From Ruminococcus sp. (GTDB taxonomy: Bacteria; Bacillota; Clostridia; Oscillospirales; Ruminococcaceae), in the NCBI GenBank assembly GCA_017441505.1, contig JAFRXL010000011.1, positions 1 to 44,014 of the forward strand: a stretch of DNA of 44,014 nt. The letters are read 5' to 3'. Position 1 is the first letter of the stretch, and each line of letters opens with the position of its first letter. The notes beneath the pieces were generated by a model. The model saw only the letters and a program-made list of their open reading frames with translations, did no database searches and had not been told where the DNA came from. A program made the translations under genes and the position numbers. This document shows positions 4,527 to 30,594 of this stretch, in pieces.

Positions 4527-4612
4527 AATATAATTGATACCTCCGTTTTTAGATGTTGCCTGCTGAAAAAGAAATCCTATTATGATAAATTCCAGCAAAA
4601 TATGCTTTTAAT

Positions 4613-4641
4613 ATTATACTACAATTCATTATATTTTGCAA
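4613..4641 (-). promoter_or_regulatory. Promoter of the asnB-HD-pyrB operon
   Basis: On the minus strand TTGCAA (4641-4636) is 17 bp from TATAAT (4618-4613). It lies 87 bp upstream of the asnB start, back to back with the cbi promoter. Confidence 0.75.
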
Positions 4642-4711
4642 CCAATATTCTAAAAAATCGCATATAAAAATGAAATATCAGAGTAAGTATATTTAACAAT
4701 TAATGCGGATG

Positions 4712-4740
4712 TTGATTTTGAAAGCAAAATGTGTTATAAT
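4712..4740 (+). promoter_or_regulatory. Promoter of the cbi operon
   Basis: TTGATT (4712-4717) and TATAAT (4735-4740) are 17 bp apart, with an extended -10 TGT. The leader to the start of cbiD is only about 30 bases, so there is no room for a cobalamin riboswitch, and no B12-box motif is visible between 4527 and 4778. Confidence 0.8.
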
Positions 4741-4777
4741 TTTATGTGGAAATTAACACTGCAAGGAGTGAGTCGGA

Positions 4778-5905
4778 ACGGAAAAATATGTCTATAGCGG
4801 CGGAAAAAAGCTAAGATGCGGCTATACTACGGGGAGCTGTGCAGCTGCGGCAGCTAAAGCTTCTGCTGAAATGCTGCTCAGCGGACATAAGGTGTGCTAT
4901 GCAGCAATTTCAACTCCATCAGGAATAATCGTCAGAACTGAGATAAAAGAGCAGACCATAAACTGCGATTTCGCCTCTTGTGCAGTGGTGAAGGACAGCG
5001 GTGATGATCCGGATGTGACTAACGGTATTATGGTGTATGCCGAGGTCAGACGGATAGAAAGCGGTGTTGAAATAACCGGCGGCAAAGGTATAGGCAAAGT
5101 GACTAAACCGGGACTCGATCAGCCTGTAGGGGAGTACGCTATTAATTCTGTTCCGAGAAAAATGATAGAGCAGTCGGTCAGGGAAGCAGCCGAGATATAT
5201 GAATATAAGGGCGGTTTCAGGATAGTTATATCAATTCCTCAGGGGGAAGAACTCGCCAAAAAAACTTTCAATCCAAGAATGGGGATAGTAGGCGGAATAT
5301 CGGTCATCGGGACGACTGGTATAGTCGAGCCGATGAGCAGCTCCGCTATAGTTGAGACCATAAGAACAGAAGCAAATATGCGAAAAGCTAATGGTCACGA
5401 GTATTTGCTGCTGAACGTCGGAAACTACAGTGAGGACTTTATAAGGCTAAAGAACGAAAAGCTCTCCGACAGAACTGTGACTTGCAGCAATTTTATCGGC
5501 GATGCATTCGATATAGGTGTTTCATTAGGTTTTAAGGGAATACTTCTTATTGGTCACATTGGAAAGCTTGTGAAGCTTGGGTCAGGAATTATGAATACTC
5601 ATTCTTCGTATGCCGATGGAAGAATGGAGACACTTGTATCATGCGGCGTTGCGGCTGGAGTGTCAAATGATATTCTTGTACGGCTGCTGGACTGCGTTAC
5701 GACTGATGCGGCGATTGATATTCTTATAGAAAATAATGCTGCTGATGTTGTGTTTAAAGTTCTTGTGGAGAGAGTTGAGCACTATATTGCTGCAAGAGTT
5801 CATGATGAAGTTGAAATAGGAGCAGTTATCTTTTCAACTAAGAACAATATACTTCTAAAAACAAGTAAAGCAGATGAACTTATAAAACATATATCGGAGG
5901 AATAA
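4778..5905 (+). CDS. cbiD: Cobalt-precorrin-5B C1-methyltransferase, apparent ACG start
   Basis: CbiD methylates C1 of the corrin ring in the anaerobic B12 pathway, using S-adenosylmethionine. The first in-frame ATG is at 4871, but the frame is open back to a TGA at 4769-4771, and the upstream codons give the family's conserved N-terminus EKYVYSGGKKLRCGYTTGSC followed by alanines. No ATG, GTG or TTG occurs in that upstream stretch. The best initiation site is ACG at 4778, nine bases after AAGGAG at 4763-4768. The ATG at 4788 is in another frame and stops after eight codons. From ACG the protein has 375 residues, a usual CbiD length. A sequencing error at this codon (ACG for ATG) is the main alternative. 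First gene of the operon; cbiF starts directly after its stop. Confidence 0.93.
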   Translation, partial: TEKYVYSGGKKLRCGYTTGSCAAAAAKASAEMLLSGHKVCYAAISTPSGIIVRTEIKEQTINCDFASCAVVKDSGDDPDVTNGIMVYAEVRRIESGVEITGGKGIGKVTKPGLDQPVGEYAINSVPRKMIEQSVREAAEIYEYKGGFRIVISIPQGEELAKKTFNPRMGIVGGISVIGTTGIVEPMSSSAIVETIRTEANMRKANGHEYLLLNVGNYSEDFIRLKNEKLSDRTVTCSNFIGDAFDIGVSLGFKGILLIGHIGKLVKLGSGIMNTHSSYADGRMETLVSCGVAAGVSNDILVRLLDCVTTDAAIDILIENNAADVVFKVLVERVEHYIAARVHDEVEIGAVIFSTKNNILLKTSKADELIKHISEE

Positions 5906-6664
5906 ATGGTACATATAGTTGGTGCAGGCTGTGGAGCTCCTGACCTTATAACGGTCAGAGGAATGAGACTTATTGAACAGGCGGATGTGGTGATATACGC
6001 AGGATCGCTGGTAAATCCGGAGCTTTTAAAGTACGCAAAAGAAAGTGCTGAAATATATAACAGTGCCGAAATGACTTTGGATGAAGTAGTGAGTGTGGTG
6101 GCTGATGCTGAAAAATCAGGAAAAACAACGGTCAGACTGCATACTGGCGACCCCAGTATTTACGGAGCAATAAGAGAGCAAATCGACAGATTTGATTTGC
6201 TTGGAATAAAATATGATATATGTCCGGGAGTAAGCTCTTTTTGCGGAGCTGCGTCGTCCCTGAAAGCTGAGTATACTCTCCCTGATGTGTCACAGACTGT
6301 TATCCTTACACGTATGGCTGGACGTACTCCGGTACCGGAAAAAGAGAGCATAGAAAAGCTTGCAGAGCATGGAGCTACAATGATAATTTTTCTGAGTGCA
6401 GGAATGCTTGAAGAACTTTCACAAAAGCTGATTAAAGGCGGATATTCGCCGGAAACTCCTGCTGCGATAGTGTATAAAGCTACATGGAACGATGAGAAAA
6501 TTTGCAGATGTAAAGTAGAGGATCTTGCAGAGACTGCGAGGTCTAACGATATAAAAAAGACAGCACTTATTGCTGTCGGTGATTTTCTTGGCGATGACTA
6601 TTCGCTCTCTAAACTATACGATCCGGCATTTGAAACTGAATTCAGAAAGGCAGAAAAAGAGTGA
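5906..6664 (+). CDS. cbiF: Cobalt-precorrin-4 C11-methyltransferase
   Basis: A SAM-dependent methylase of the tetrapyrrole methylase fold, acting on C11 of the corrin ring. The N-terminal glycine loop VHIVGAGCGAPDLITVRG and the segment RLHTGDPSIYGAIREQ are characteristic of CbiF/CobM, as is CPGVSSFCGAASSL. Its 252 residues fit the family. The start is adjacent to the cbiD stop and is served by GGAGG just upstream. It overlaps cbiG by four bases (GTGA), which suggests translational coupling. Confidence 0.95.
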   Translation: MVHIVGAGCGAPDLITVRGMRLIEQADVVIYAGSLVNPELLKYAKESAEIYNSAEMTLDEVVSVVADAEKSGKTTVRLHTGDPSIYGAIREQIDRFDLLGIKYDICPGVSSFCGAASSLKAEYTLPDVSQTVILTRMAGRTPVPEKESIEKLAEHGATMIIFLSAGMLEELSQKLIKGGYSPETPAAIVYKATWNDEKICRCKVEDLAETARSNDIKKTALIAVGDFLGDDYSLSKLYDPAFETEFRKAEKE

Positions 6665-7695
6665 ATATATCAATTATATCCGTGACTAAAAAAGGAAACG
6701 AGATTTCAAAGTATATTGCGGAGGGACTCGCTGAGTATACTGTCCGTCGATATTCATTTTATAAGAATTCTGACAATGATTCGGAGACGTTTAATGATAT
6801 TAATGAATTGACACGGAAATTGTTTTTTCAAAGTCGTGTTATTATTTTTGTATGTGCGTGCGGCATAGCAGTTAGAGCAATATCGAAGTATATTGCTTCA
6901 AAGCAAAGTGATCCGGCTGTAATAGTAATTGATGATAATGGAAAATATGTGATACCGATTTTATCCGGACATATTGGCGGAGCAAATGTATTTTCAAAAT
7001 ATATTGCTGAAAAAATTGGTGCAGAAGCGATAGTTACTACAGCGACAGATACAAAAGGATTGTTCTCGCCTGATAGCTTTGCAGTTGAAAATGGACTTGT
7101 AATAGATGATATAAAAATAGCTAAGGAAATAGCGTCGGCTGTTCTGAACGGTGAGCCAATTGGACTTGACACTGACTATGATCATGTTAATCTTCCAAGT
7201 GAAATAAGTCTTGATAAGAAATGTCGAACAGGGCTGTATATTGGGAATAAAAACGATCATAGTCCGTTTAAGATCACGCTTAAACTTATACCTAAAAATA
7301 TAGTTCTGGGTATAGGCTGCAAGAAGGGGACAAGTTGTGTGCTTATTGATGAGGCGATCAGGGATGTGCTTTCAGATAATGGAATTGATATTAGAAGAGT
7401 GTCTCAGATAGCTTCGATCGACTTGAAGGCGAATGAACAGGGATTGGTAGAATATTGCAGAAAAAATAAAATTGATTTTATAACATTTTCAGCTGACGAC
7501 CTAAAAAATGTTGAGGGCGATTTTACTGGTTCAGATTTTGTTGCGAGTATCACAGGTGTTGACAATGTGTGCGAACGATGTGCGGTGATGTGCAGCGGAG
7601 GCAAGATAATCGTTAGGAAAACAGCGATAAATGGGGTTACTGTTGCTGTTGCAGAAAAAGATATTATGCTTGATTTTGAAAGGAGTATAATATGA
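6661..7695 (+). CDS. cbiG: Cobalt-precorrin-5A hydrolase
   Basis: CbiG opens the delta-lactone of cobalt-precorrin-5A and releases acetaldehyde, the step between CbiF and CbiD. The 344-residue protein begins at GTG 6661. The N-terminal part has FVCACGIAVRAISKYIASK and the central part has PILSGHIGGAN, both hallmarks of CbiG. The C-terminal domain carries GIGCKKGTSC and the SADDL motif followed by TGVDNVCERCAV. It is translationally coupled to cbiF and cbiH through 4-base overlaps. From this gene to cbiA the DNA is visibly richer in A and T than cbiD or cbiP. Confidence 0.93.
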   Translation: MNISIISVTKKGNEISKYIAEGLAEYTVRRYSFYKNSDNDSETFNDINELTRKLFFQSRVIIFVCACGIAVRAISKYIASKQSDPAVIVIDDNGKYVIPILSGHIGGANVFSKYIAEKIGAEAIVTTATDTKGLFSPDSFAVENGLVIDDIKIAKEIASAVLNGEPIGLDTDYDHVNLPSEISLDKKCRTGLYIGNKNDHSPFKITLKLIPKNIVLGIGCKKGTSCVLIDEAIRDVLSDNGIDIRRVSQIASIDLKANEQGLVEYCRKNKIDFITFSADDLKNVEGDFTGSDFVASITGVDNVCERCAVMCSGGKIIVRKTAINGVTVAVAEKDIMLDFERSII

Positions 7696-8417
7696 AACTA
7701 TACATAGTTGGTTTTGGACCGGGTAATTATGAAGGTATGACCATTGAAGCGAGGTCGGCAATAGAAAGCAGCGATCTTGTAGTTGGATACACTACATACA
7801 CAAAAATTATTAAGCAATATTTTCCAGAAAAAGAGTACCTGAGTACAGAAATGAGAAAAGAGAAAGAAAGAGTCTTATTAGCTCTCGAAAATGCTGTTAC
7901 TAAAACAGTAGCAATTATTTGCAGTGGAGACTCTCAGCTTTATGGTATGGCAGGATTAGCTTTTGAATTGAGTGAAGCGTATTCGGACGTTGAAATAGAA
8001 GTGGTAGCTGGAGTGACTGCGGCATTTAGTGGCGGAGCTGTTCTTGGTGCTCCGCTTACTCATGATTGTGCGTTAATAAGCTTGTCTGACTTGCTTACTC
8101 CTGCTCTAAAAATAGAGAAAAGACTAAGATGTGCATCAGAGGGTGATTTTGTTATAGTTTTGTACAATCCCTCGTCCAAAAAAAGAGTTGATCATTTGAA
8201 AAAAGCTTGTGAAATAATACTGGAATATAGAGATGGTAATACGCCGTGCGGTGTGGTAAGAAATATAGGACGTGCTGGACAAGAAAGTAAAATTTTGACG
8301 TTAAAAGAACTGCGAGATATAAGTGTAGATATGTTCACAACAGTATATATAGGAAATTCAGAAACTAAAATTTTAAATGGCAAAATAGTTACACCAAGAG
8401 GGTATAATAATGACTAA
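7692..8417 (+). CDS. cbiH: Cobalt-precorrin-3B C17-methyltransferase
   Basis: It methylates C17 and drives ring contraction of the corrin macrocycle. The tetrapyrrole methylase features are the N-terminal loop YIVGFGPGNYEGMTIEA, the ICSGDSQLYGMAGL segment, the EVVAGVTAAFSGGAVLGAPL loop and FVIVLYNPSSKKR, a run typical of CbiH/CobJ. Its 241 residues correspond to the methylase alone, with no extra domain. ATG overlaps the cbiG stop (ATGA at 7692-7695), and the end overlaps cbiJ by eight bases. Confidence 0.95.
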   Translation: MKLYIVGFGPGNYEGMTIEARSAIESSDLVVGYTTYTKIIKQYFPEKEYLSTEMRKEKERVLLALENAVTKTVAIICSGDSQLYGMAGLAFELSEAYSDVEIEVVAGVTAAFSGGAVLGAPLTHDCALISLSDLLTPALKIEKRLRCASEGDFVIVLYNPSSKKRVDHLKKACEIILEYRDGNTPCGVVRNIGRAGQESKILTLKELRDISVDMFTTVYIGNSETKILNGKIVTPRGYNND

Positions 8418-9150
8418 AGTGTTGATCTTTGGCGGTACGACTGAAGGACGTGAATTAGCTGAATATTGCTATACGAATTCAATACCGTGTGATGTTTCGG
8501 TAGCAACAGAGTACGGATTAAAAATGTTGCCTTCAAAAATAAAAGTATATTGCGGAAGACTTTCTTCGGATGAGATGAGAAATCTTATACGTGATAATCT
8601 GTATTCCTTAGTTGTTGATGCAACGCATCCGTATGCTGTCGAAGCGAGCGAAAATATAAAGAATGCTTGTGTAGCTTCTTCTACCAAATATATCCGGCTT
8701 GCAAGAGATCAATCAAAAATCGAAGGCGAAAAGATTGATTGTCATGCTGATCTTGTTGAAAGACTGAATAAAACGTCTGATGTGATATTAAATACAATGG
8801 GAAGTAAAATTTTGCCAGTTCTTATTAAAGTTAATGATTACGAAAAAAGAATATGGAACAGGGTTTTGCCTTCAAAAAATATAGTAAAATATTGCACTGA
8901 ACTTGGATTTGATGAAGATAAGTTGATAATGGAGAAAGGTCCATTTTTCATCGAACAGAATATTGAACATATACAAAGAAGCTGTGCGAAAATTTTGCTC
9001 ACGAAAGAAAGTGGGGCAACGGGTGGATATCCAGAAAAAATCATTGCAGCAAAAAAATGCAATATATTAACACTTACACTTGTTAGGCCGTCAGATGATG
9101 GATATAGTCTTGAGTATATAAAAGATTTTTTAAATGGAGTTAAGAAATGA
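8410..9150 (+). CDS. cbiJ: Cobalt-precorrin-6A reductase
   Basis: It reduces the corrin macrocycle with NAD(P)H. Typical signs are the N-terminal VLIFGGTTEGRELAEYC, VVDATHPYAVEASENIKNAC, RLARDQS, and near the C-terminus LLTKESGATGGYPEKI. Its 246 residues match the CobK/CbiJ family. It lies between the methylases CbiH and CbiET and overlaps both reading frames (8 and 4 bases). A Rossmann-type cytoplasmic enzyme with no signal peptide. Confidence 0.94.
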   Translation: MTKVLIFGGTTEGRELAEYCYTNSIPCDVSVATEYGLKMLPSKIKVYCGRLSSDEMRNLIRDNLYSLVVDATHPYAVEASENIKNACVASSTKYIRLARDQSKIEGEKIDCHADLVERLNKTSDVILNTMGSKILPVLIKVNDYEKRIWNRVLPSKNIVKYCTELGFDEDKLIMEKGPFFIEQNIEHIQRSCAKILLTKESGATGGYPEKIIAAKKCNILTLTLVRPSDDGYSLEYIKDFLNGVKK

Positions 9151-10334
9151 TATACATAATCGGAGTAGGAATGGATGGAAAAAATACATTAACTCTTGAG
9201 GCGAAAAATGCAATTGAAGAATCAGATATTCTAATTGGTGCTGAAAGAATGGTGCGAATGTTTGATTGCTTAAACAAGAAGTCGATCATTACCTATAATT
9301 CGGATAAAATCACGAGTATACTGAAGAACGAAACTTACAGTAGTGCGGCTGTTATAATGTCTGGCGATATAGGCTTTTATAGTGGTGCAAGTAAGCTTAT
9401 TGAAAAAATTGAAGGAATGAAATATAAAATGATTAGTGGAATCGCAAGTTATTCATATTTCTGTTCTGCTATTGGAATACCTTACGAAAACATTAAACTA
9501 TATTCGTTGCATGGCAATAGTGATAGTGTTGCAATAAAAGTCAAATTATATGAAAAATGCTTTTTTTTACTCGATAACAATAATACTCCTGATAAAGTAT
9601 GTAAAAGACTTGCTGATTATAGTTTAGGTGATGTGGAAGTGTTTATCGGAGAGAATCTTGGTTCACAAAATGAGAAGATATACAAAGGAAAAGCGTATGA
9701 TTTTATAGAAACTAATTTTGCCGATTTGAGTGTGATGATTACCTTAAATAGTAAATATTTGTCATATGATCCTATTGGAATTAATGACGAAGATTTTATC
9801 AGAGGTAACGTGCCTATGACGAAATCTATGATTAGAGGTGCGGCTGTATCGGGAATGAAAATTCAGCGTGATTCAATTTGTTGGGACATTGGATGCGGAA
9901 CTGGATCGGTATCTATTGAAATGGCTTATAAATGTTTTGGTGGAACTGTGTTTTCCTTCGATAAATCTCAGAATGCTTTGGATCTAACCGAAGCTAATGC
10001 AAAAAAATTTGGTTGTGACAATATAGTGCGTATTTATGGTGAGTGTCCAGCGCGTTTTGGAGAAGCTCCTGTGCCTGATAAGGTATTCATAGGTGGATCG
10101 TCAGGAAAATTATGTGAGATTTTGGACTATATTTACTCTCAAAATAATAAAATTGATGTAACCATAAATGCGGTGACACTTGATACTCTAAATGAAGCTG
10201 TGTCATATTTTAAAAAGAAATGTATAAAGTACTCCTTCGTACAAATTGCTGTCAACGAAACGAAAAATATCGGGGACCACATAATGTTCCTTGCACAAAA
10301 TCCGGTGTTTATTATCAGAGGATATAGTTTATGA
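9147..10334 (+). CDS. cbiET: Fused cobalt-precorrin-7 C5-methyltransferase / precorrin-6B C15-methyltransferase (decarboxylating)
   Basis: Two enzymes in one 395-residue chain, as in CobL. Residues 1 to about 205 are CbiE, with IIGVGMDGKNTLTLEA and the MSGDIGFYSG segment. Residues about 215-395 are CbiT, with the entry motif FIRGNVPMTKSMIR and the class I SAM-binding loop DIGCGTGS at 247-254. The fusion methylates C5 and C15 and decarboxylates the acetate side chain at C12. A run of eight T at 9561-9568 inside the CbiE part is a possible slippage site, but the frame is intact. Four-base overlaps join it to cbiJ and cbiA. Confidence 0.95.
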   Translation: MIYIIGVGMDGKNTLTLEAKNAIEESDILIGAERMVRMFDCLNKKSIITYNSDKITSILKNETYSSAAVIMSGDIGFYSGASKLIEKIEGMKYKMISGIASYSYFCSAIGIPYENIKLYSLHGNSDSVAIKVKLYEKCFFLLDNNNTPDKVCKRLADYSLGDVEVFIGENLGSQNEKIYKGKAYDFIETNFADLSVMITLNSKYLSYDPIGINDEDFIRGNVPMTKSMIRGAAVSGMKIQRDSICWDIGCGTGSVSIEMAYKCFGGTVFSFDKSQNALDLTEANAKKFGCDNIVRIYGECPARFGEAPVPDKVFIGGSSGKLCEILDYIYSQNNKIDVTINAVTLDTLNEAVSYFKKKCIKYSFVQIAVNETKNIGDHIMFLAQNPVFIIRGYSL

Positions 10335-11671
10335 GAAGTGTTATGATAGCTGGGACGAAAAGTGGATGTGGAAAGACAACAATAATGTGCGGAATTCTGT
10401 CAGCATTAAAAAATAGAGGATTAAAAGTTGCATCCTTTAAGTGTGGTCCGGACTATATTGATCCGACATTTCACAGGACAGTGATTGGAATTGATTCACA
10501 TAATCTTGATAGCTTTTTCTGTGATAACAATACATTAAGATATATTTTCAACAAATATAGTAAAGGCGATGATATATCTGTTATCGAAGGAGTTATGGGA
10601 TTTTTTGATGGCGACAGCTCCTCTGCAAAGGCGATTTCTGATATTTTAAGCGTGCCTGTGATTATAGTAATTGACTGTAAAGGGATGAGTGACTCGATTG
10701 AAGCCGTGATGAAGGGGTATATAAATCACCATACTCCAAATTATATTGCTGGCTTTATTTTTAATAGATTACCTTTTAAATTGGTTCCTAAAGTAAAGCA
10801 ATTTTGTTGTAATTGCGGAGTAGAGTATTTTGGAATTATGCCTGAAATTGGTTTTTCTTTCGAGAGTAGGAACTTAGGACTTATTATGGCTGGTGAAGTA
10901 ACTGATATTGAAACCAAACTACAATCTATTTCTAAAATTGTCGAGGAAAATGTTTTGATCGATAAGATTTTAGATCTATATTCAAATAATTATGATTTTG
11001 AATTAGAATTAAAAATAAAGAAATTTCGTGAAGCTCCATCTATTGCAATAGCAAATGATAATGCATTTTGCTTTATTTATTCGGAGAATATTGCTTTACT
11101 TACTGAAATGGGATGCAAGATCGTTTATTTTTCTCCGATGGATGACAATATAGTACCAGATGCTGATGGCTTGATTATCCCGGGAGGTTATCCTGAAATA
11201 TATGCTGAAAAATTATCATCTAATAAAACCATGCTAACAAGCATGAAGGAAAAGATTGATTCTGGTTTGCCAACTATTGCTGAATGTGGTGGGTTTATGA
11301 CACTTCATAACAATATTGCTTGCTATGAAAATGACTATAAAATGGCAAAAGTTTTTGATGCGAAAGTTTTCCAAACTGATAAACTGACACGTTTCGGATA
11401 CATAAAAATGAAGGCATCCACGGATAATTTGATATGTAAAAAAGGCGATACGATTTTAGCTCATGAGTTCCATTATTTTGACAGCACTGATTGTGGAACT
11501 GATTTTTTAGCTGAAAAAAAGGATGGCAGAAATTGGAGATGCTGTCATACAAGTGATACATTATACGCTGGATTTCCACATTTATATTTTTATTCCAATT
11601 TAAAAATTGCTGAAAATTTTGTACAAAAATGCTGTGAATACAAAAAGAAAAAAGGAGAACGAAATGCCTAA
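10331..11671 (+). CDS. cbiA: Cobyrinic acid a,c-diamide synthase
   Basis: It amidates the a and c side chains of cobyrinic acid using ATP and glutamine. The N-terminal ATPase domain has the P-loop GTKSGCGKT (8-16) followed by SFKCGPDYIDPTFH. The C-terminal class I glutamine amidotransferase domain has GLIIPGGYPE and the nucleophile Cys319 in AECGGFMTL. Its 446 residues fit the family. The reading frame ends inside the start of cbiP (8-base overlap). The DNA here is among the most AT-rich of the operon. Confidence 0.95.
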   Translation: MRSVMIAGTKSGCGKTTIMCGILSALKNRGLKVASFKCGPDYIDPTFHRTVIGIDSHNLDSFFCDNNTLRYIFNKYSKGDDISVIEGVMGFFDGDSSSAKAISDILSVPVIIVIDCKGMSDSIEAVMKGYINHHTPNYIAGFIFNRLPFKLVPKVKQFCCNCGVEYFGIMPEIGFSFESRNLGLIMAGEVTDIETKLQSISKIVEENVLIDKILDLYSNNYDFELELKIKKFREAPSIAIANDNAFCFIYSENIALLTEMGCKIVYFSPMDDNIVPDADGLIIPGGYPEIYAEKLSSNKTMLTSMKEKIDSGLPTIAECGGFMTLHNNIACYENDYKMAKVFDAKVFQTDKLTRFGYIKMKASTDNLICKKGDTILAHEFHYFDSTDCGTDFLAEKKDGRNWRCCHTSDTLYAGFPHLYFYSNLKIAENFVQKCCEYKKKKGERNA

Positions 11672-13133
11672 GAAAATTATGCTTCAAGGTACGATGTCTA
11701 ATGTCGGAAAAAGCTTTCTGACAGCTGCTTTGTGTAGAATCTTTCGGCAGGATGGATATAAGGTTGCACCTTTCAAGTCACAGAATATGGCACTAAATTC
11801 TTTTATTACTATAAATGGAGAAGAGATCGGAAGAGCTCAGGCTCTTCAGGCTGAGGCGGCTGGAATAGTCCCAACTGCATATATGAATCCTATTTTATTG
11901 AAGCCTACGACGGATGTTGGTTCCCAGGTCATCGTCAATGGGAAAGTCAGAGGGAACATGAGAGCTGCTGATTATTTCAGATATAAAAAATGCTTGATTC
12001 CGGATATTATTGCTGCATATAAAAAACTTGAATCCGAATTTGATATAATAGTCATTGAGGGTGCAGGTAGTCCCGTAGAGCTAAATTTGAAAAAAGATGA
12101 TATAGTAAATATGGGACTTGCTGAACTTCTTAAATCTCCTGTGTTGCTTGTTGGTGATATTGATCGTGGTGGTGTTTTTGCACAGCTTATCGGGACTCTT
12201 TCTTTATTGGAAAAAAATGAAAATGAACTTGTAAAGGGACTGATCGTTAATCAATTCCGAGGTGATATTTCACTTTTTTCTGACGGTGTGAAAATTCTTG
12301 AGGAAAAAAGCCAAAAAAATGTGCTTGGAGTTATCCCCTATATAGAAACTCTGCTTGAAGATGAAGATAGTTTGTCTGGTAAATTTAATAATAAATCCGG
12401 CGATCATGATATAGAGATAGCAGTTATTAAATTACCAAAAATATCTAATTTCAGTGATTTTGATGTGCTTATGCAATACTCGGGAGTGTTTGTGAATTTT
12501 GTTTCAAATCCCAGTCAGCTTATAGCACCTGACATGATAATCATTCCCGGTACGAAGAGTACTATCGCTGATCTGAAGTGGCTTAGAGAAAGTGGCTTTG
12601 AGGAAAAAATCAAACAGTTTTCTGCTGCTGGAGTGTTGCTTTTTGGAATATGCGGAGGCTATCAGATGCTCGGCAGTTCCATAGATGATACTATTGGATG
12701 TGAGTCCGGAGGAGTGATTAAAGGCATGGGGGGGCTTGAACATAAAACAATTTTTTGCTCTGAAAAAAAGCAATGTCAGGTCAGTGGGAAATTTGATAAA
12801 ATAGTAGATTCTTATTCTTTTTTATCTGGTGCTTCTTTTTATGGATATGAAGTTCATATGGGGGAGACCGTTTCAAATGATTCCCGACTGCTTGAACATG
12901 GCGGCTCGTATTCGCATAATATTGCCGGATGTTATGTTCACGGATTGTTCGATAGTGCTGACGTTTCAGGACGTTTGATAAAGGAACTTTTTAGACGTAA
13001 AGGACTGCAATTTAATTGTGACATTATTGACCGAAAAGAATTCAGAGATCAGCAGCTTGATCTGATAGCTGATATTGTCAGAAATAATATCGATATGTCA
13101 GCAATATACAGAATAATTGAGGAGGGCGTATGA
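11664..13133 (+). CDS. cbiP: Cobyric acid synthase
   Basis: It amidates the b, d, e and g side chains of the corrin ring. The start at 11664 is preferred to an in-frame ATG at 11607 because AAGGAG at 11652-11657 lies six bases ahead and the protein then begins PKKIMLQGTMSNVGKSFL, the family N-terminus with its P-loop variant. KSQNMALNSF and GRAQALQAEAAG are typical CbiP/CobQ runs. The glutaminase domain has the nucleophile Cys330 in FGICGGYQML. Length 489 residues. A run of seven G at 12728-12734 lies in the glutaminase domain. It overlaps cbiC by four bases. Confidence 0.95.
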   Translation: MPKKIMLQGTMSNVGKSFLTAALCRIFRQDGYKVAPFKSQNMALNSFITINGEEIGRAQALQAEAAGIVPTAYMNPILLKPTTDVGSQVIVNGKVRGNMRAADYFRYKKCLIPDIIAAYKKLESEFDIIVIEGAGSPVELNLKKDDIVNMGLAELLKSPVLLVGDIDRGGVFAQLIGTLSLLEKNENELVKGLIVNQFRGDISLFSDGVKILEEKSQKNVLGVIPYIETLLEDEDSLSGKFNNKSGDHDIEIAVIKLPKISNFSDFDVLMQYSGVFVNFVSNPSQLIAPDMIIIPGTKSTIADLKWLRESGFEEKIKQFSAAGVLLFGICGGYQMLGSSIDDTIGCESGGVIKGMGGLEHKTIFCSEKKQCQVSGKFDKIVDSYSFLSGASFYGYEVHMGETVSNDSRLLEHGGSYSHNIAGCYVHGLFDSADVSGRLIKELFRRKGLQFNCDIIDRKEFRDQQLDLIADIVRNNIDMSAIYRIIEEGV

Positions 13134-13774
13134 ATTTAGAATATGTTCTTCCTTCGGAAATCGAAAAAAGGAGCTTTGAAATTATAGAGAGCGAACTTGG
13201 TAATGTCGATATTCCTGACGATATAAAACCTATTATTTTAAGAGCAATACATACAACTGCTGATTTTGATTATTTTAAAAATCTATATTTTTCGGACAAT
13301 GTTGTTGAAATTGCTTTGAGGACTCTGCAAAAGGGAGCAGTCATAGTTACGGACACCAATATGGCTCGTTCGGGTATCAATAAGAAGGCACTTGAAAGAC
13401 ATGGATGCGAGTGTGTATGTTATATGGCTGATGATGATATTGCTCAGACAGCCAAGCTGAATGGTACAACACGAGCTGTAGCGTCAGTGGACAAGGCTTC
13501 ATTATTAGACAGACCTGTTATATATGCGGTCGGCAATGCTCCTACAGCTCTCATACGTCTTAGCGAATACATTAAAAATGGTACTTTCTTGCCTGAGGTC
13601 ATAATCGGAGCACCTGTTGGATTTGTAAATGTAGTTCAGTCCAAGGAAATGATTATCGAGACCGGTGTACCGTGTATCGTTGCACGGGGTAGAAAAGGCG
13701 GAAGCAATGTTGCGGCAGCTATCTGTAATGCTCTTCTTTATATGCTTGATACTAAAAACGTTCCTCAAAAGTGA
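13130..13774 (+). CDS. cbiC: Cobalt-precorrin-8 methylmutase
   Basis: It moves the methyl group from C11 to C12 to give cobyrinic acid. The 214-residue protein contains the conserved catalytic histidine in RAIHTTADFDY (His41), followed by TDTNMARSGI, VGNAPTALIRL and GAPVGFVNVVQSKE, all standard for CbiC/CobH. Last gene of the cbi operon. No clear terminator follows it; the promoter of the riboswitch operon begins 38 bases downstream, so some read-through into the riboswitch leader is possible. Confidence 0.95.
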   Translation: MNLEYVLPSEIEKRSFEIIESELGNVDIPDDIKPIILRAIHTTADFDYFKNLYFSDNVVEIALRTLQKGAVIVTDTNMARSGINKKALERHGCECVCYMADDDIAQTAKLNGTTRAVASVDKASLLDRPVIYAVGNAPTALIRLSEYIKNGTFLPEVIIGAPVGFVNVVQSKEMIIETGVPCIVARGRKGGSNVAAAICNALLYMLDTKNVPQK

Positions 13775-13812: not shown

Positions 13813-13841
13813 TTGAATTTTAAGTATGGATTTGCTATAAT
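13813..13841 (+). promoter_or_regulatory. Promoter of the riboswitch-controlled chelatase/transport operon
   Basis: TTGAAT (13813-13818) and TATAAT (13836-13841), 17 bp apart, with an extended -10 TGC. Transcription should begin near 13848, about 30 bases before the riboswitch. Confidence 0.8.
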
Positions 13842-13879
13842 TAGTATGTTCATGAACAAGTAAAATTGAATAATAACAA

Positions 13880-14045
13880 ACGGTGCCGGATGTAAAAATA
13901 TTTTATTGACGGTCAAAAGGGAAGCAGGTGAGATACCTGCACGATCTCGTCACTGTGATTGTGGAGCGGTAGACATTATCAGCCACTGAGAAATCGGGAA
14001 GGCGGTCATATCGTGTTGATGCATAAGTCAGGAAACCTGCCGTAT
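13880..14045 (+). ncRNA. Cobalamin riboswitch aptamer
   Basis: The conserved core of the cobalamin riboswitch can be followed in order: AAAAGGGAAGCAGGTGAGA near 13914-13932, CCTGC pairing with GCAGG, CTCGTCACTGTGA, AGCCACTG at 13981-13988, GGGAAGG near 13996-14002, and the B12 box with GTCAGGAAACCTGCC at about 14028-14042. Its position between a promoter and a terminator hairpin implies that bound cobalamin stops transcription of the operon that begins with the CbiK-like lipoprotein. The rest of the 13775-14205 gap is the promoter and the expression platform. Confidence 0.93.
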
Positions 14046-14131
14046 TGTTTGTACAGGATCTGAATGATCCGGGTCACGAGGTATTGATCGTACTATTTCA
14101 GGCTCTCTTAAACGAGGGTCATTTTGCAGTG

Positions 14132-14157
14132 CCTTCTGATAGTTCAGAGGGTTTTTT
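14132..14157 (+). terminator. Riboswitch expression-platform terminator
   Basis: CCTTCTGA (14132-14139) pairs with TCAGAGGG (14144-14151), followed by six T. A second weak hairpin, GGCTCTC/GAGGGTC at 14101-14120, lies just before it and may be part of the switch. The antiterminator pairing could not be settled by eye. Confidence 0.75.
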
Positions 14158-14205
14158 ATTGCTTAAACGATCCGTGCCTTTTATAGGAAAGGATATGTTT
14201 TTATT

Positions 14206-15264
14206 ATGAAAAAAATGGTTGCTTTAATGCTTGGTCTTGCTGTTGTTACATCTGCTTTTACAGCTTGCGGAAGCAGCGATAGCTCATCAAAGAGTGAAAC
14301 TTCATCATCTTCATCTGAGGATGCTGCAACTACAGAAGCTGCAACAACTGCTGATGAAGAAGCTACAGCTGAAGAGAGTACAACAGAAGCTGCTGGTGAG
14401 GAAGAAGAGGAAGAAGAAAACTACAATACAGGCGATGCATCTTTGGATAACGTTCGTAATCAGGATGAGATCGGTGAAAATGAGCTTTTAGTTCTCAGCT
14501 TCGGTACAAGCTATAATGACAGCCGCCGTCTTACAATTGGTGCTATAGAAGATTCACTTGAAAAAGCTTTCCCTGAATTCTCAGTTCGCAGAGGTTTTAC
14601 TGCAAATATCATTATAGATCATGTTAACAAGAGAGACGGTATACTTATAGATGATGTTGATGCTGCAATGAAGAGAGCAGTTGATAACGGTGTTAAGACA
14701 CTTGTTGTTCAGCCAACTCACCTCATGAACGGTCTTGAGTATAATGACCTTATAGATCAGGTCGGCAGCTATGCTGACGGATTTGAAAAAGTCGTATTTG
14801 GTGAGCCGCTTCTCACTTCCGATGAGGATTTCAAGAGAGTTGAAAAAGCTATTGTTGACTGGACTTCCGAATATGACGACGGAAAGACTGCTATCTGCTT
14901 CATGGGTCATGGTACAGAGGCACAGTCAAATGAGGTTTACCAGAAGATGCAGGACCTCCTTACAGCTGACGGATACACAAATTACTTTGTAGGAACTGTT
15001 GAAGCTACTCCTTCTGTAGACGATGTGCTTGCTAAGGTAAAAGAGGGCAATTACGAAAAGGTAATTCTTGAGCCACTTATGGTCGTTGCCGGAGATCACG
15101 CTAACAACGATATGGCTGGTGATGAAGAGGATTCATGGAAGTCAGTATTCACAGCAGCAGGCTACGATGTAGAGTGTCTCGTAAGAGGTCTTGGAGAAAA
15201 TGAGGCTATCAGAGAGATCTACGTTGACCACGCAAAGGCAGCTATTGAAAAGGCAGCTGAATAA
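14206..15264 (+). CDS. Exported CbiK-like cobaltochelatase lipoprotein
   Basis: The C-terminal 270 residues match the CbiK class II chelatase fold: LLVLSFGTSYNDSR, RRGFTAN, QPTHLMNGLEY with His172, VFGEPLL with Glu200, and MGHGTEAQSN with His235. These are the expected metal-binding and catalytic positions of sirohydrochlorin cobaltochelatase. Unlike the cytoplasmic enzyme, this one has a lipoprotein signal with Cys21 (VTSAFTAC) and a linker of about 55 residues rich in Ser, Thr and Glu, including a run of glutamates. It should therefore be anchored outside the membrane. It is the first gene after a cobalamin riboswitch and is followed by a NEAT-like lipoprotein and an ABC importer. A role in inserting or removing a metal from a tetrapyrrole at the surface is inferred; cobalt capture is an alternative. 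Confidence 0.9.
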   Translation: MKKMVALMLGLAVVTSAFTACGSSDSSSKSETSSSSSEDAATTEAATTADEEATAEESTTEAAGEEEEEEENYNTGDASLDNVRNQDEIGENELLVLSFGTSYNDSRRLTIGAIEDSLEKAFPEFSVRRGFTANIIIDHVNKRDGILIDDVDAAMKRAVDNGVKTLVVQPTHLMNGLEYNDLIDQVGSYADGFEKVVFGEPLLTSDEDFKRVEKAIVDWTSEYDDGKTAICFMGHGTEAQSNEVYQKMQDLLTADGYTNYFVGTVEATPSVDDVLAKVKEGNYEKVILEPLMVVAGDHANNDMAGDEEDSWKSVFTAAGYDVECLVRGLGENEAIREIYVDHAKAAIEKAAE

Positions 15265-15271
15265 CAAAAAC

Positions 15272-15295
15272 ATCGGGCAGTTTAAGCTGCCCGAT
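15272..15295 (+). terminator. Intercistronic hairpin after the chelatase gene
   Basis: ATCGGGCAG (15272-15280) pairs perfectly with CTGCCCGAT (15287-15295). Only a short T tract follows, so it probably acts as a partial terminator or 3'-end stabiliser that lets the chelatase be made in excess over the transporter genes. Confidence 0.65.
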
Positions 15296-15315
15296 TTCAA
15301 TATAGTGAGGTAAAA

Positions 15316-16227
15316 ATGAAAAGATCATATTTAGCAGCTCTTTTATTGAGCGGAATAATTATTACAGGATGCGGAGCAAATAAAAGTTCATCATCAAAGG
15401 AAAGTTCTTCTGCAACTGAAAATACAACAGCAGCTGTTACAGAGACAGCTGAGCAGTCTGCTGAATCGACCGAGCACGCAACAGCTCCGCAGCAGGAAGT
15501 CGGTTACGAGGGCATGACTGCGGTAGCCGCAGATGAACTCAATGACGGAACCTATGATATAACAGTTGATTCTACATCATCGATGTTCAAGATAACAGCC
15601 TGTGAACTTACTGTTGAAAATGGCACTATGACTGCAAAAATGACCATGAGCGGCAAGGGATACGACAGTATGTATATGGGTACAACTGAGGAAGCTGAAA
15701 AAGCTCCCGAAAACGAGCAGATACCGGCTGTTATGGAAAATGGAGTAAGCACATTTACAGTACCTGTTGAAGCTCTTGATAAAGAGATGATCTGCACATC
15801 CAAAAGTGCCAAGAAGCAGGAATGGTACGACCGAAAGCTTGTGTTCAGAGCAGATTCTCTTCCGCTAACAGCTTTTAAGGACAGTGCGTCCCATGGTATA
15901 GAATCGATAGATATTGAAGACGGCGAATACAAAATCGACGTTACTCTTGAGGGCGGTTCCGGCAAAGCAAGTGTTCAGTCACCGGCAGTTTTAAAAGTAA
16001 CAGACGGTAAAGCCGTTGCTGAAATTGTCTGGAGCAGCAGCAACTATGATTACATGATCGTTGACGGAGAAAAATATCTCCCTGTAAATACAGAGGGAAA
16101 TTCCGTTTTTGAGATCCCCGTAACTGTTTTTGACAAGAAGATGAAGGTTTCAGCAGATACAACAGCAATGAGCACTCCGCATGAAATAGAGTACACCTTA
16201 TATTTTGATACATCAACATTGAAATGA
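15316..16227 (+). CDS. Lipoprotein with two NEAT-like domains
   Basis: The lipoprotein signal ends at Cys19 (GIIITGC) and is followed by a Ser/Thr/Glu linker. Two related beta-rich units of about 110 residues follow. The first contains GKGYDSMYMGTTEEA and the second contains SSSNYDYMIVDGEKY, each preceded by DGTYDI or DGEYKI and followed by FTVPVEALDK or FEIPVTVFDK and a C-terminal strand pair. This is the look of NEAT or iron-transport-associated domains, which bind haem in Gram-positive surface proteins. The ligand is unknown. The gene begins 51 bases after the chelatase and overlaps the binding-protein gene by four bases (ATGA). Confidence 0.75.
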   Translation: MKRSYLAALLLSGIIITGCGANKSSSSKESSSATENTTAAVTETAEQSAESTEHATAPQQEVGYEGMTAVAADELNDGTYDITVDSTSSMFKITACELTVENGTMTAKMTMSGKGYDSMYMGTTEEAEKAPENEQIPAVMENGVSTFTVPVEALDKEMICTSKSAKKQEWYDRKLVFRADSLPLTAFKDSASHGIESIDIEDGEYKIDVTLEGGSGKASVQSPAVLKVTDGKAVAEIVWSSSNYDYMIVDGEKYLPVNTEGNSVFEIPVTVFDKKMKVSADTTAMSTPHEIEYTLYFDTSTLK

Positions 16228-17366
16228 AGAAGAGAATAATTGCGGCTGCATCTGCGTTTTTTCTGGTGATAAACAGTTCGTGCTCCTTTAAAAAGGAGAA
16301 TACAGATGCATTATCAGGCATGAAAAAGACAGGCTCAATGGAGCTTTATTACGCAGATCAGTTTAAAGTGGATTATTACGAAGACGGTTTTTCGCATATT
16401 ATTATCGGTGACGATGAGTTCCTTCTCGTGCCGGAAGGGGAGGATGCTCCGGAAGATATTGGAGACATCACAATACTCAGGCAGCCGATAGAGAATATAT
16501 ATACAGCATCCTCGTCGTCGGTCGATCTTTTTGACGGTATCGGCGAACTTGATAAGATAAAGATGATCTCGACTGCTGAAAAAGACTGGTGTCTGCCGTC
16601 GGTGACAGAAGCTCTTGACAACGAAGATATTAGCTACATAGGCAAATACAGTGCTCCGGACTATGAAGCACTTATTGAGAATGACTGCGACTTTGCTCTT
16701 GAAAACTCAATGATATGGCACACTCCGGAAGTAAAGGAGCAGATCGAAAGACTGGATATTCCGGTAATGGTCGAGCTTTCAAGTTACGAATCACATCCTC
16801 TCGGCAGAATGGAGTGGATGAGGTTGTATGGACTTCTCCTTGGAAAAAGCAAAGAAGCTGATGAATTTTTCAAAAAGAAGTCGGACTTGTTTGAGTCGGC
16901 TGTTACTGATGAAATACCGGATAACGAGCGAAAAACGGCAGCATTTTTCTCTGTAAGTCCAAACGGATATATCAACACAAGAAAGCCGGGGGACTATATA
17001 TCCAAGATGATAGAGCTTGCCGGCGGAAAGTACATATTCACAGGCAAAGACCTGAATGTAGATGATAATGCAATGTCCACGATAAATATACAGGTCGAAA
17101 CTTTCTACGAATCGGCAAAGGAAGCTGATTATCTTATATATAACAGTACTGTTGACGGCAAACTTGATTCTATGGAGCAATTGCTGGAAAAGTGCAGTAT
17201 TTTAAAGGACTTCAAAGCTGTGAAAGAGGGGAATGTCTGGTGTACTGAGCAGAATATGTTCCAGCAGACAACAGGTGCAGCCGATATGATACTTGATCTT
17301 CACACGATTTTTATGGGAGAAGCCGGTGACAACGAGCAGCTCTCATATCTTCATCGCCTGAAATAA
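16224..17366 (+). CDS. ABC transporter substrate-binding lipoprotein (FecB/BtuF type)
   Basis: A 380-residue protein with a lipobox Cys20 (VINSSC) and the class III (TroA-like) binding fold used for siderophores, haem and corrinoids. It has an N-terminal lobe with GDITILRQPIENIYTASSSS, a central helix, then a C-terminal lobe with ISKMIELAGGKYIF and the closing segment LKDFKAVKEGNVWC. The start ATGA overlaps the previous stop. With the following permease and ATPase it forms a complete importer. The substrate is uncertain: the riboswitch upstream suggests a corrinoid, cobalt complex or tetrapyrrole; the NEAT-like partner suggests haem. Confidence 0.85.
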   Translation: MKKRIIAAASAFFLVINSSCSFKKENTDALSGMKKTGSMELYYADQFKVDYYEDGFSHIIIGDDEFLLVPEGEDAPEDIGDITILRQPIENIYTASSSSVDLFDGIGELDKIKMISTAEKDWCLPSVTEALDNEDISYIGKYSAPDYEALIENDCDFALENSMIWHTPEVKEQIERLDIPVMVELSSYESHPLGRMEWMRLYGLLLGKSKEADEFFKKKSDLFESAVTDEIPDNERKTAAFFSVSPNGYINTRKPGDYISKMIELAGGKYIFTGKDLNVDDNAMSTINIQVETFYESAKEADYLIYNSTVDGKLDSMEQLLEKCSILKDFKAVKEGNVWCTEQNMFQQTTGAADMILDLHTIFMGEAGDNEQLSYLHRLK

Positions 17367-17375
17367 GGAGTTAAT

Positions 17376-18401
17376 ATGACTTGTAAGAAAAATATCCGTA
17401 TAATAGCAGGATTTGTGCTGCTGTCGGTTACAGTGTTGATTTTTTTCTTCATGAATCTTGTCAAAGGCAGCAGCAGTATATCTCTGCATGACACGATCTC
17501 CGCACTGACCGGAGGCGATGTGCCAATATCGGTACACAGGATAATCATAGATATACGTCTGCCGAGGTGTCTTGCCGCTATGATACTTGGTGGAGCACTT
17601 GCAGTATCGGGATTTTTGCTGCAATGTTTTTTCGGCAATCCTATCGCAGGACCTTATGTACTTGGCATATCGTCCGGAGCTAAACTTGCGGTTGCACTGG
17701 CTATGATATTTTCCCTTAAAAACGGCATACTTCTTGGCTCAGGGGTAATGGTGCTTGCGTCATTCATAGGTTCTTTGATCTCAATGGGACTTATACTTCT
17801 TATGTCCGGAAAAGTCAGAAATATGGCTCAGCTTATCATAAGCGGAGTTATGATAGGCTATGTGTGTTCGTCCATTACTGAACTTGCGGTCACGTTTGCA
17901 GACGACTCAAATATAGTAAATCTGCATAACTGGTCAATGGGAACTTTTTCCGGTACGGACTGGGAGGATATTCGTTATATGTCAGTGATAGTGTTTACTG
18001 CCTTTATCGCAGCATTTTTCATTTCAAAGCCTCTTGGAGCGTATCAGCTCGGTGAAAAATATGCAAGCAATATGGGAGTAAATATAAAACTTTTCCGTGT
18101 TGTCCTCATACTTCTTTCAAGTATCTTATCAGCCTGTGTTACGGCATTTGCAGGACCTGTATCTTTTGTGGGAGTAGCAGTTCCGCATCTCATGAAAAGT
18201 CTTTTCGGAACTTCAAGACCTCTGATAATAATTCCGGCATCTTTTTTAGGCGGAGCTGTTGTGTGCATGGCTTGTGATTTTGTAGCAAGGATACTTTTTG
18301 CACCTGTCGAGCTCAGTATAAGTACAGTTACGGCATTTTTCGGAGCTCCTGTAGTAATAATGATAATGCTGAAAAGAAACCGTCAGAAGGGAAGTGTGTG
18401 A
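17376..18401 (+). CDS. FecCD/BtuC-family ABC transporter permease
   Basis: A polytopic membrane protein of 341 residues. Family hallmarks are DIRLPRCLAAMILGGALAVS near residue 58, GNPIAGPYVLGISSGAK, the LWSMG-like segment NWSMGTFSGTDW, and GPVSFVGVAVPHLMKS near the C-terminus that faces the ATPase. It is the membrane channel of the importer, normally a homodimer. It starts nine bases after the binding-protein gene and its stop lies two bases before the ATPase start, so the three should be made together. Confidence 0.93.
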   Translation: MTCKKNIRIIAGFVLLSVTVLIFFFMNLVKGSSSISLHDTISALTGGDVPISVHRIIIDIRLPRCLAAMILGGALAVSGFLLQCFFGNPIAGPYVLGISSGAKLAVALAMIFSLKNGILLGSGVMVLASFIGSLISMGLILLMSGKVRNMAQLIISGVMIGYVCSSITELAVTFADDSNIVNLHNWSMGTFSGTDWEDIRYMSVIVFTAFIAAFFISKPLGAYQLGEKYASNMGVNIKLFRVVLILLSSILSACVTAFAGPVSFVGVAVPHLMKSLFGTSRPLIIIPASFLGGAVVCMACDFVARILFAPVELSISTVTAFFGAPVVIMIMLKRNRQKGSV

Positions 18402-18402
18402 T

Positions 18403-19503
18403 ATGCTGAGGGCTGAAGAACTTTCTGTCGGATACGGTAAGAAGGTAGTAGTTAGCGGAGTTAGTTTTGAAGTCAAAGCAGGTGAAGTCATATCTATCAT
18501 CGGACCTAACGGTGCAGGAAAGAGTACGATATTAAAGACTATAGCCTCGCAGCTTCCTTTGCTTGGCGGTAAAGTACATATAGGTGAAAATATCATCTCA
18601 GAGATGAGCGAAAAGGAACTATCGAGAAAAATGTCACTTATGCTTACTGAGCGGATAAATTCTGAAATGATGACCTGCTATGATATTGCTGCAACCGGAA
18701 GATACCCATATACAGGTATGTTTGGAATTTTGGAAAAAGAGGACAGGGATATAGTCGAGGAGGCAATGTCACTGACTGGTATCTCATATTTGCGAGATGT
18801 GGATTTCAGGAATATAAGTGACGGACAGCGTCAGTGCGTGATGCTTGCAAGAGCTATAGCTCAGGAGCCGGAAGTAATGCTGCTTGACGAGCCAACATCA
18901 TTCCTTGATATAGACCACAAGCTTGAACTGCTGACACTTCTCAGAAAACTGGCAAGAGGTAAGCAAATAGCAGTTGTAATGACTATCCACGAACTTGACC
19001 TCGCCCAGAGATTTTCAGACAAGGTATTGTGTATCAGGGACGCTAAAGCTGACAAATACGGTACTCCGGAACTTGTTTTTTCGGGCAGTTATATCAACGA
19101 GCTCTACGACATAAAGAATGGCACATTTGAGCCTTTGTACGGCTCTTCCGAGCCGGAACGAGTTGAAGGTGCTCCGGACGTATTCGTCATAGGAGGCGGG
19201 GGATGCGGTATACCTGTATATCACAAACTGCAAAGAGAGGGAATACCATTTGCAGCTGGGATAATTCACGAAAATGATTTAGACTATCCATTGGCAAAGC
19301 ATCTTGCAGCAGATTTAGTTTCAGAACGTGCATACGAACCTATTTCAGAGCAAAACTATAATAAGGCTCTGGAAATAATGAGAGTATGCAGCAAGGTCAT
19401 TTTTTGTACTGAAAAAACAGGTACGATGAATCAGAAAAATCTTCTTCTGAAAGAAACTGCGGAAAAAGAGGGGAAAGAAATAATACTGCCGCACGAAATA
19501 TAG
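18403..19503 (+). CDS. ABC transporter ATPase with Rossmann-like C-terminal extension
   Basis: Residues 1 to about 245 are a standard importer ATPase: Walker A GPNGAGKST, signature ISDGQRQ and Walker B VMLLDEPT. After that comes an extension of about 115 residues that includes DVFVIGGGGCGIPVYHKLQR and HENDLDYPLAKHLAADLV. The glycine-rich loop suggests a small nucleotide-binding domain. Similar tails occur, as I recall, in archaeal and clostridial BtuD- or HmuV-like ATPases, which would fit corrinoid or haem transport. ATG 18403 is chosen over the in-frame GTG at 18394 because of spacing from AGAAGGG. Last gene of the operon, with a strong terminator. Confidence 0.92.
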   Translation: MLRAEELSVGYGKKVVVSGVSFEVKAGEVISIIGPNGAGKSTILKTIASQLPLLGGKVHIGENIISEMSEKELSRKMSLMLTERINSEMMTCYDIAATGRYPYTGMFGILEKEDRDIVEEAMSLTGISYLRDVDFRNISDGQRQCVMLARAIAQEPEVMLLDEPTSFLDIDHKLELLTLLRKLARGKQIAVVMTIHELDLAQRFSDKVLCIRDAKADKYGTPELVFSGSYINELYDIKNGTFEPLYGSSEPERVEGAPDVFVIGGGGCGIPVYHKLQREGIPFAAGIIHENDLDYPLAKHLAADLVSERAYEPISEQNYNKALEIMRVCSKVIFCTEKTGTMNQKNLLLKETAEKEGKEIILPHEI

Positions 19504-19506
19504 AGA

Positions 19507-19545
19507 AAAGCTTCTTATGTTATGACGAACATAGGAAGCTTTTTT
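19507..19545 (+). terminator. Terminator of the chelatase/transport operon
   Basis: AAAGCTTCTTATGTT (19507-19521) pairs with AACATAGGAAGCTTT (19528-19542) with one G-T wobble, and the T-run continues to 19545. Confidence 0.9.
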
Positions 19546-30437: not shown

Positions 30438-30511
30438 TGGAGGCGCCACCCAGATTTGAACTGGGGATCAGGGTGTTGCAGACCCACGCCTTACCACTTG
30501 GCTATAGCGCC
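30438..30511 (-). tRNA. tRNA-Cys (GCA)
   Basis: The minus strand folds as a cloverleaf of 74 bases with encoded CCA. The acceptor stem is GGCGCTA/TGGCGCC and the anticodon loop is CTGCAAC, giving GCA. Last gene of the four-tRNA cluster. Confidence 0.95.
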
Positions 30512-30516
30512 GTCAT

Positions 30517-30592: not shown

Positions 30593-30594
30593 AT

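Follow-up and report, generated by a model that had tools for sequence, protein, structure and literature searches.

The Isd-type haem relay of Gram-positive bacteria joins NEAT proteins to a FecB-type lipoprotein importer and is under iron control. CbiK-P of Desulfovibrio vulgaris, an exported class II cobaltochelatase, is found in the periplasm, is not a lipoprotein and is not known to carry NEAT domains; a 2008 study by Lobo reportedly found two functional CbiK proteins in that species. In Desulfovibrio a B12 element controls cbiK-cbiL together with btuCDF, and Rodionov and colleagues report that delta-proteobacteria with a CbiK have no known cobalt transporters (PMC545781). The closest precedent for the locus described here is IhtABCDE of Porphyromonas gingivalis, in which a CbiK-like lipoprotein goes together with an importer of the FecBCD type (PMC10913741). 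Published discussion treats it as a system for haem/iron or Mn-porphyrin (PMC10913741, PMC13402209), and P. gingivalis is also listed among species without the steps that lead to precorrin-2 (PMC6461909). That last source (Shelton 2019) defines tetrapyrrole precursor salvagers, primarily Firmicutes, in which the ring-making steps are absent and the corrin-ring and loop genes retained; 78% of the salvagers with ecosystem data are host-associated (PMC6461909). Here we examine a 44,014-nucleotide stretch of Ruminococcus sp. (contig JAFRXL010000011.1 of assembly GCA_017441505.1, positions 1 to 44,014; hereafter the window), in which a gene set for an exported CbiK, a NEAT lipoprotein and a FecBCD-type importer stands behind a cobalamin riboswitch and directly downstream of a corrin-ring operon.

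We propose, with a probability of roughly 55%, that this operon is a B12-repressed system by which the cell would draw on its surroundings for the ring that starts B12 synthesis, already loaded with cobalt. In most carriers examined the exported enzyme is the sole chelatase found, and corrin genes are kept while ring-making genes are absent; the set is under B12 control, and at some loci the chelatase is fused to domains of a tetrapyrrole-binding type. Taken together, these features would be best explained by a first step of B12 synthesis at the cell surface.

A conserved gene set behind a cobalamin riboswitch

The riboswitch aptamer (13864-14058, +; RF00174, 95.2 bits, E 1.4e-22) precedes genes for a CbiK lipoprotein (14206..15264, +), a lipoprotein with two NEAT-fold domains (15316..16227, +), a FecB/BtuF-type substrate-binding lipoprotein (16224..17366, +), a FecCD/BtuC-type permease (17376..18401, +) and a BtuD-like ATP-binding cassette (ABC) ATPase with a GTG start (18394..19503, +). 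This arrangement had been put forward in a preliminary description of the window, and it is upheld by the riboswitch score, by conservation of the unit among relatives and by the occurrence of its parts as fusions.

A search with the window's CbiK found at least 582 stretches that encode relatives, of which the best 80 were analysed and their export status examined; the closest named match was a sheep-rumen Ruminococcus metagenome-assembled genome (98% identity). Genes for NEAT, FecB, FecCD and ABC proteins occur in that order at 50 of the 59 loci among these 80 with at least 4.7 kb of downstream sequence; at the other nine, one or two of the four partners did not turn up in this search. Chance grouping, which the preliminary description had named as a refuting outcome, is unlikely given how often this order is kept. 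The co-occurrence it had proposed to survey extends to the control element as well: a B12 box, defined as a fuzzy-consensus match, lies upstream of the CbiK core, at most 1 kb away, at 71 of the 74 best-80 loci with enough upstream sequence (the exceptions being L042, L061 and L078; L and G numbers denote loci and genomes), and Rfam placed a cobalamin riboswitch upstream of CbiK in 9/9 relatives scanned. When CbiK was searched in 98 genomes of the window's family (its own included) and 392 of its class, with the N-termini read, a B12 box was found at 28/46 exported versus 6/55 other CbiK genes. One relative, L064, in a record named Fusobacterium naviforme, carries two tandem Clostridiales-1 RNAs (RF01699; 13885-14222, -) downstream of the set; its CbiK groups with Lachnospiraceae rows in the tree described below, so the name may not match its kinship.

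The nine-gene corrin-ring operon directly upstream, cbiD-cbiF-cbiG-cbiH-cbiJ-cbiET-cbiA-cbiP-cbiC (4871..13774, +), had been left out of the earlier picture of the locus. It was recognised from its open reading frames and from homologous clusters in relatives; Pfam supports CbiJ, CbiET, CbiA and CbiC, and the other names come from reading the proteins. No cbiL, chelatase or cobalt-transporter gene was seen on reading the cbi run, and an Rfam scan of 4500-4950 for a second riboswitch before cbiD returned only a miRNA match far below the gathering score. Other cbi genes are also present at 39 of the 80 best-relative loci.

Exported chelatase, NEAT domains and importer

The CbiK protein matches PF06180 (E 8.7e-82; 274.8 bits against a cut-off of 26.2) and begins with a signal sequence and lipobox, followed by an acidic Ser/Thr/Glu-rich linker at about residues 25-85. 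A script found a lipobox in 73 of the 80 best relatives; among the remaining seven, the sequence of L008 breaks off where its contig stops, and several have plain signal peptides. Because it scored 230.1 bits against the NCBIfam equivalog SiroCoChCbiK, below the cut-off of 400, the protein is called a CbiK-family enzyme rather than the equivalog. Its nearest solved structures are 9b86 ('Heme-binding protein FetB', E 7.4e-46), Salmonella CbiK (1qgo) and the putative chelatase 2xvx (E 4.8e-34); we take 2xvx/2xvy to be Desulfovibrio CbiK-P. FetB, and not the CbiK-P previously chosen for comparison, is therefore the closer relative by E-value.

We take the metal ligands of Salmonella CbiK to be His145, Glu175 and His207. 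The corresponding positions of the 1qgo chain align with His235, Glu266 and His298 of the window protein, its predicted metal ligands, so that the two histidines and one glutamate of a class II cobaltochelatase are present in the alignment. Each of the three is conserved in 80/80 best relatives and in 45/45 exported rows from the family and class; among 71 cytosolic rows (one locus per genome) the counts are 70, 66 and 70, respectively. Since the ligands are retained in all 45 exported rows, the exported CbiK should, judging from its sequence, be an active chelatase. Of the residues first named as key, His235 keeps this role by its alignment with 1qgo position 145, whereas His172, although well conserved, aligns with 1qgo position 83. 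Glu200 was rejected as catalytic: it is Glu in 56/80 best relatives and 25/45 exported rows, and its equivalents are V in 1qgo, R in 9b86 and L in 2xvx.

In a tree of 105 CbiK rows, most exported forms (52, with one cytosolic row inside) group together, and a second, small exported set (G354, G480, G115, G175, G399) sits among cytosolic rows; five changes between exported and cytosolic CbiK are required. At L153 of G480 (5053-6822, -), a single frame encodes an exported lipoprotein in which CbiK occurs twice, next to an apparent binding protein and FecCD, and at L088 of G093 a single open frame encodes a precorrin-2-dehydrogenase-like domain followed by CbiK.

Both domains of the second lipoprotein have the NEAT fold. 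In domain 2, His or Tyr (PHEIEY / PYEIEY) stands at the presumed place of the ligand Tyr; the NEAT profile gave weak matches only against PDB sequences. CbiK and NEAT share one frame at 8/45 exported family and class loci, with NEAT behind in seven and in front in one (L195), and NEAT shares a frame with FecB at 9/45 of these loci and in 3/80 best relatives. No NEAT domain was found at any of the 71 cytosolic-CbiK loci, 38 of which are at least 9 kb long. When seven fusion proteins were run against Pfam, the CbiK or binding-protein half was confirmed and NEAT never rose above the cut-off (one weak match, L198), so the fusion calls depend on the profile built for this NEAT family (41-297 bits). 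Fusion on both sides of NEAT suggests a hand-over from the chelatase through NEAT to the binding protein.

These parts could also serve to acquire iron from haem: the chelatase would remove iron, as has been proposed for Porphyromonas IhtB/FetB (which we take to be one protein), and the importer would take up the iron or the porphyrin. FetB is the nearest solved relative and NEAT domains of this fold bind haem; however, riboswitch control and the neighbouring cbi genes indicate B12, and we regard haem-iron acquisition as improbable. IhtB-IhtCDE is described as a haem/iron system, and IhtB is reportedly not regulated by PgFur (PMC10913741).

Among NCBIfam models the permease (PF01032, E 3.1e-78) is best matched by BtuC, with 209.1 bits against a cut-off of 334. 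The ATPase (PF00005, E 6.9e-28) is best matched, below cut-off, by the corrinoid ABC ATPase PRK09536 over residues 4-345; it scores 214.5 against 537 bits in the BtuD-equivalog test and has a C-terminal extension of about 120 residues (residues ~245-369). An ordinary BtuFCD-type importer of corrinoids (cobinamide or cobamides), with the CbiK and NEAT lipoproteins acting as surface binders of corrinoid or cobalt that aid capture, would account for these best matches and for the cobalamin riboswitch, and cobamide importers are plentiful even among cobamide makers (PMC6461909). The BtuC and PRK09536 scores are, however, far below their cut-offs, and such an importer would leave unexplained the conserved chelatase site, the NEAT-chelatase fusions and the absence of ring-making genes alongside kept cbi ring genes; we consider it unlikely.

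Ring-making genes in genomes with an exported CbiK

Export in the family and class genomes was judged by eye and by script; in the class this covered 60 loci, comprising frames of at least 285 aa and four shorter ones, and class genomes with shorter CbiK frames were counted as cytosolic. An exported CbiK alone was found in 38 genomes (15 of the family, 23 of the class), and eight had both exported and cytosolic forms (G009, G181, G188, G276, G324, G354, G390, G415). The comparison group of 63 cytosolic-only genomes consisted of 21 from the family and 42 from the class, the latter hand-picked for spread from about 80; SUMT was compared in 26 cytosolic genomes (13 family, 13 class). CbiK of G415, G461 and G176 has a plain signal peptide without a lipobox. 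G005, which has HemC and CbiM and whose CbiK has a signal-like N-terminus without Cys, was left out of all groups, and the HemC and CbiM comparison also omitted G043 and G031 (no CbiC) and the partial or CbiX-type cases G012, G064, G072, G007 and G078. PF13241 was tried as a marker for precorrin-2 dehydrogenase, proved too unspecific and was excluded from the counts.

HemC was present in 11/38 exported-only genomes, in 8/8 dual genomes (partial at a contig end in G009) and in 50/63 cytosolic-only genomes; with genomes treated as independent and not corrected for kinship, Fisher's test on exported-only versus cytosolic-only gives 7.5e-7. SUMT occurred in the same 11 exported-only genomes as HemC, in 7/8 dual genomes and in 18/26 cytosolic genomes. 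CbiM, counted above 100 bits, was present in 8/38, 1/8 and 47/63 genomes, respectively (exported-only versus cytosolic-only, Fisher 1.6e-7, again with genomes taken as independent and kinship uncorrected), and CbiL in 22/38 exported-only (just below cut-off in G024) and 8/8 dual genomes. HemC and SUMT were both absent from 27/38 exported-only genomes, which are therefore predicted to be unable to make the ring; 14 of these also lacked CbiL and 22 CbiM. The same pattern is seen within the family alone, with HemC in 3/15 exported-only versus 13/21 cytosolic-only genomes (p 0.019) and CbiM in 0/15 versus 12/21. CbiC, searched in the family only, was retained in 15/15 exported-only genomes, and a CbiX separate from CbiK was found in 0/15. 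Two genomes without HemC and SUMT, G090 and G073, have apparent genes for the nucleotide loop, read as CobT, CobU, CobS, CbiB and CobD, in the cbi cluster (names by reading).

The 38 exported-only genomes span 26 genera, 18 of which are wholly without HemC; genera g1, g5, g164 and g116 mix HemC-positive and HemC-negative members, so loss or gain has been repeated. HemC, SUMT and CbiM were likewise lacking in R. flavefaciens ND2009, Y1 and YL228, Evtepia gabavorous and Fusobacterium naviforme, in which a second CbiK was not searched for; YL228 also gave no CbiL match.

The rarity of CbiM in exported-only genomes also fits uptake of cobalt only, in which the cell would secrete a ring of its own making, have the exported CbiK charge it with cobalt and take it up again, so that sirohydrochlorin would act as a cobalt carrier replacing CbiMNQO. 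G465, G435, G395 and G336 would suit this scheme, as they have HemC, SUMT, CbiL and only an exported CbiK, with no CbiM above 100 bits. As an explanation for all carriers a self-secreted carrier was dropped, since 27/38 lack HemC and SUMT, and the set showed no exporter for the ring; the scheme could apply to the HemC-positive minority, and we retain it as a rival of low probability.

Some genomes have a cytosolic CbiK and no HemC. Those at L102, L108 and L210, with FecCD and ABC genes beside CbiK, and at L106, with only an ABC gene in the stretch, may have an inside version, in which the free ring would be imported first. L115, L116 and L117 (G022, G085 and G006) also combine a cytosolic CbiK with no HemC; SUMT was found in G022 and G006, which makes these two possible uroporphyrinogen III salvagers. 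In G008 and G030, CbiC was found and CbiK and CbiX were not.

The window's own assembly (2.24 Mb, 57 contigs, 79.6% complete) has a single CbiK place and no separate CbiX, and a cytosolic partner chelatase was accordingly discarded as a candidate at that level of completeness. Elsewhere in the window, two secreted glycoside-hydrolase-like proteins (37141-39756, -; 39818-41677, -) end in apparent dockerin repeats, consistent with a cellulosome-bearing Ruminococcus, and another secreted protein (22398-23306, +) has a dockerin-like C-terminus (DVNGDGDVDGSD... ADVDGSGDADGSD). A tRNA cluster at 30438-30754 (-) comprises four genes (Cys, Gly, Asp, Val).

Proposed function and comparison with known systems

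From these observations we infer which substrate is used, which way the metal moves, in what order the ring is handed on and that it enters the cell as a cobalt complex. At the surface, CbiK would load Co(II) into a tetrapyrrole that has been scavenged without a metal and resembles sirohydrochlorin (factor II) or factor III. The ring would then pass to the NEAT lipoprotein, from there to the FecB-type protein and, through the BtuC/BtuD-like importer, into the cell, where the adjoining cbi genes would complete the corrin. Genomes with CbiL would be supplied with sirohydrochlorin, those lacking it with factor III. In most carriers examined, the system would replace HemC and SUMT as well as the cytosolic chelatase, usually also CbiMNQO and in some cases CbiL; the dual genomes, all eight of which have HemC (one partial) and CbiL, count in favour of this proposal. 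Of the three activities offered in the preliminary description, cobalt loading of a porphyrinoid is thus favoured, and a dechelatase or a metal-binding lid has gained no specific support. The tension it had noted between B12 control and haem-like NEAT domains would disappear if what they bind is a ring of the sirohydrochlorin type, destined for the cbi operon.

Sirohydrochlorin and factor III presumably leak from B12 producers, a point on which a search of the literature gave no text. As most carriers examined are without the ring-making genes, the first B12 step may occur at the cell surface on rings made by neighbours. A wider proposal, which we hold tentatively and at somewhat less than even odds, is that in a large group of Clostridia from gut and rumen B12 synthesis commits itself outside the cell, where cobalt is inserted into sirohydrochlorin or factor III that other microbes have leaked in metal-free form. 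The cobalt complex would then be imported, one importer would supply both ring and cobalt, and these bacteria would have lost their ring-making genes along with the cytosolic chelatase and the cobalt importer.

Several observations weigh against obtaining the ring in this way. The NEAT lipoprotein scores 28.1 bits against PF05031, below the cut-off of 32.8, and 8/45 exported loci (G354, G480, G115, G175, G399, G041, G321, G294) have no NEAT domain in the available stretch. The permease and ATPase resemble importers of B12, and the same control would be expected if the importer were simply one for corrinoids. HemC and SUMT are both present in 11/38 exported-only genomes. Siroheme may account for the HemC cluster in three of the five of these genomes inspected, which have sulfite reductase neighbours, namely G014, which lacks CbiL and whose cluster is flanked by apparent sulfate-type ABC transporter and sulfite reductase genes, and G465 and G405, in which a homologue of the G014 sulfite reductase lies near the cluster; G004 and G080 have no sulfite-reductase-type neighbour within 13-14 kb of theirs. 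Of the cytosolic-only genomes, 13/63 lack HemC (8/21 of the family, 5/42 of the class), some with FecCD/ABC genes beside CbiK, so export is not the sole solution. A CbiM-family match is found in eight exported-only genomes; in seven the frame has 335-362 residues, as would be expected of the nickel-type NikM(N), none lies near CbiK, and all eight were counted. Finally, the window's genome, also without HemC and SUMT, is represented by an assembly that is 79.6% complete, so its gene absences rest on relatives.

If the proposal is correct, tetrapyrrole precursor salvagers would gain a concrete uptake route, and early B12 intermediates would be traded in gut and rumen, where Ruminococcus that degrade cellulose, among other bacteria, would finish them. 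Counts of B12 producers would need revising, since organisms with a full cbi operon would still depend on neighbours. A B12 role is also suggested for exported CbiK proteins now treated as haem proteins, such as IhtB/FetB.

Our literature search, which was of limited reach, found no clostridial set with a NEAT protein and riboswitch control, no such fusions and no link to a missing early pathway; given that reach, the claim of novelty is moderate. The label cnoABDC, used for a cobalt transporter in a review (PMC8123684), could refer to this locus; we found no definition for it.

Each of the described systems shares part of the design and departs from it elsewhere. IhtABCDE has the TonB receptor IhtA, no NEAT partner in the parts of its description drawn on here and no B12 riboswitch link that we saw (PMC10913741), whereas no TonB-dependent receptor was read among the listed open reading frames of the window, nor would one be expected in a Gram-positive organism. 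Desulfovibrio shares B12 control with the present locus; D. vulgaris has a second CbiK in addition to CbiK-P. The Isd relay shares the NEAT fold; it differs from the operon here, which has B12 control, a chelatase partner, fusions and His or Tyr where the ligand is presumed to sit. BtuFCD shares the B12 riboswitch and the best-matching permease and ATPase models, and differs in that the operon scores below the curated cut-offs and adds chelatase and NEAT partners. The 27 exported-only genomes without HemC and SUMT, in a set whose family members all keep CbiC, resemble the precursor salvagers; there, genomes were defined and use of 5-aminolevulinate tested, and the parts of the study drawn on name no uptake route, importer or exported chelatase (PMC6461909).

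The preliminary description is thus retained for its gene set and revised in its ligand assignment, operon context and nearest solved relative, and the route it called undescribed has forerunners in Iht (PMC10913741) and in the B12-controlled cbiK-cbiL/btuCDF of Desulfovibrio (PMC545781). A lipoprotein of the CbiK type with its importer in Iht, an exported CbiK in Desulfovibrio and the genome class of precursor salvagers are already known; what appears to be new is the clostridial set with its NEAT protein and riboswitch control, together with the fusions and the link to the missing early pathway.

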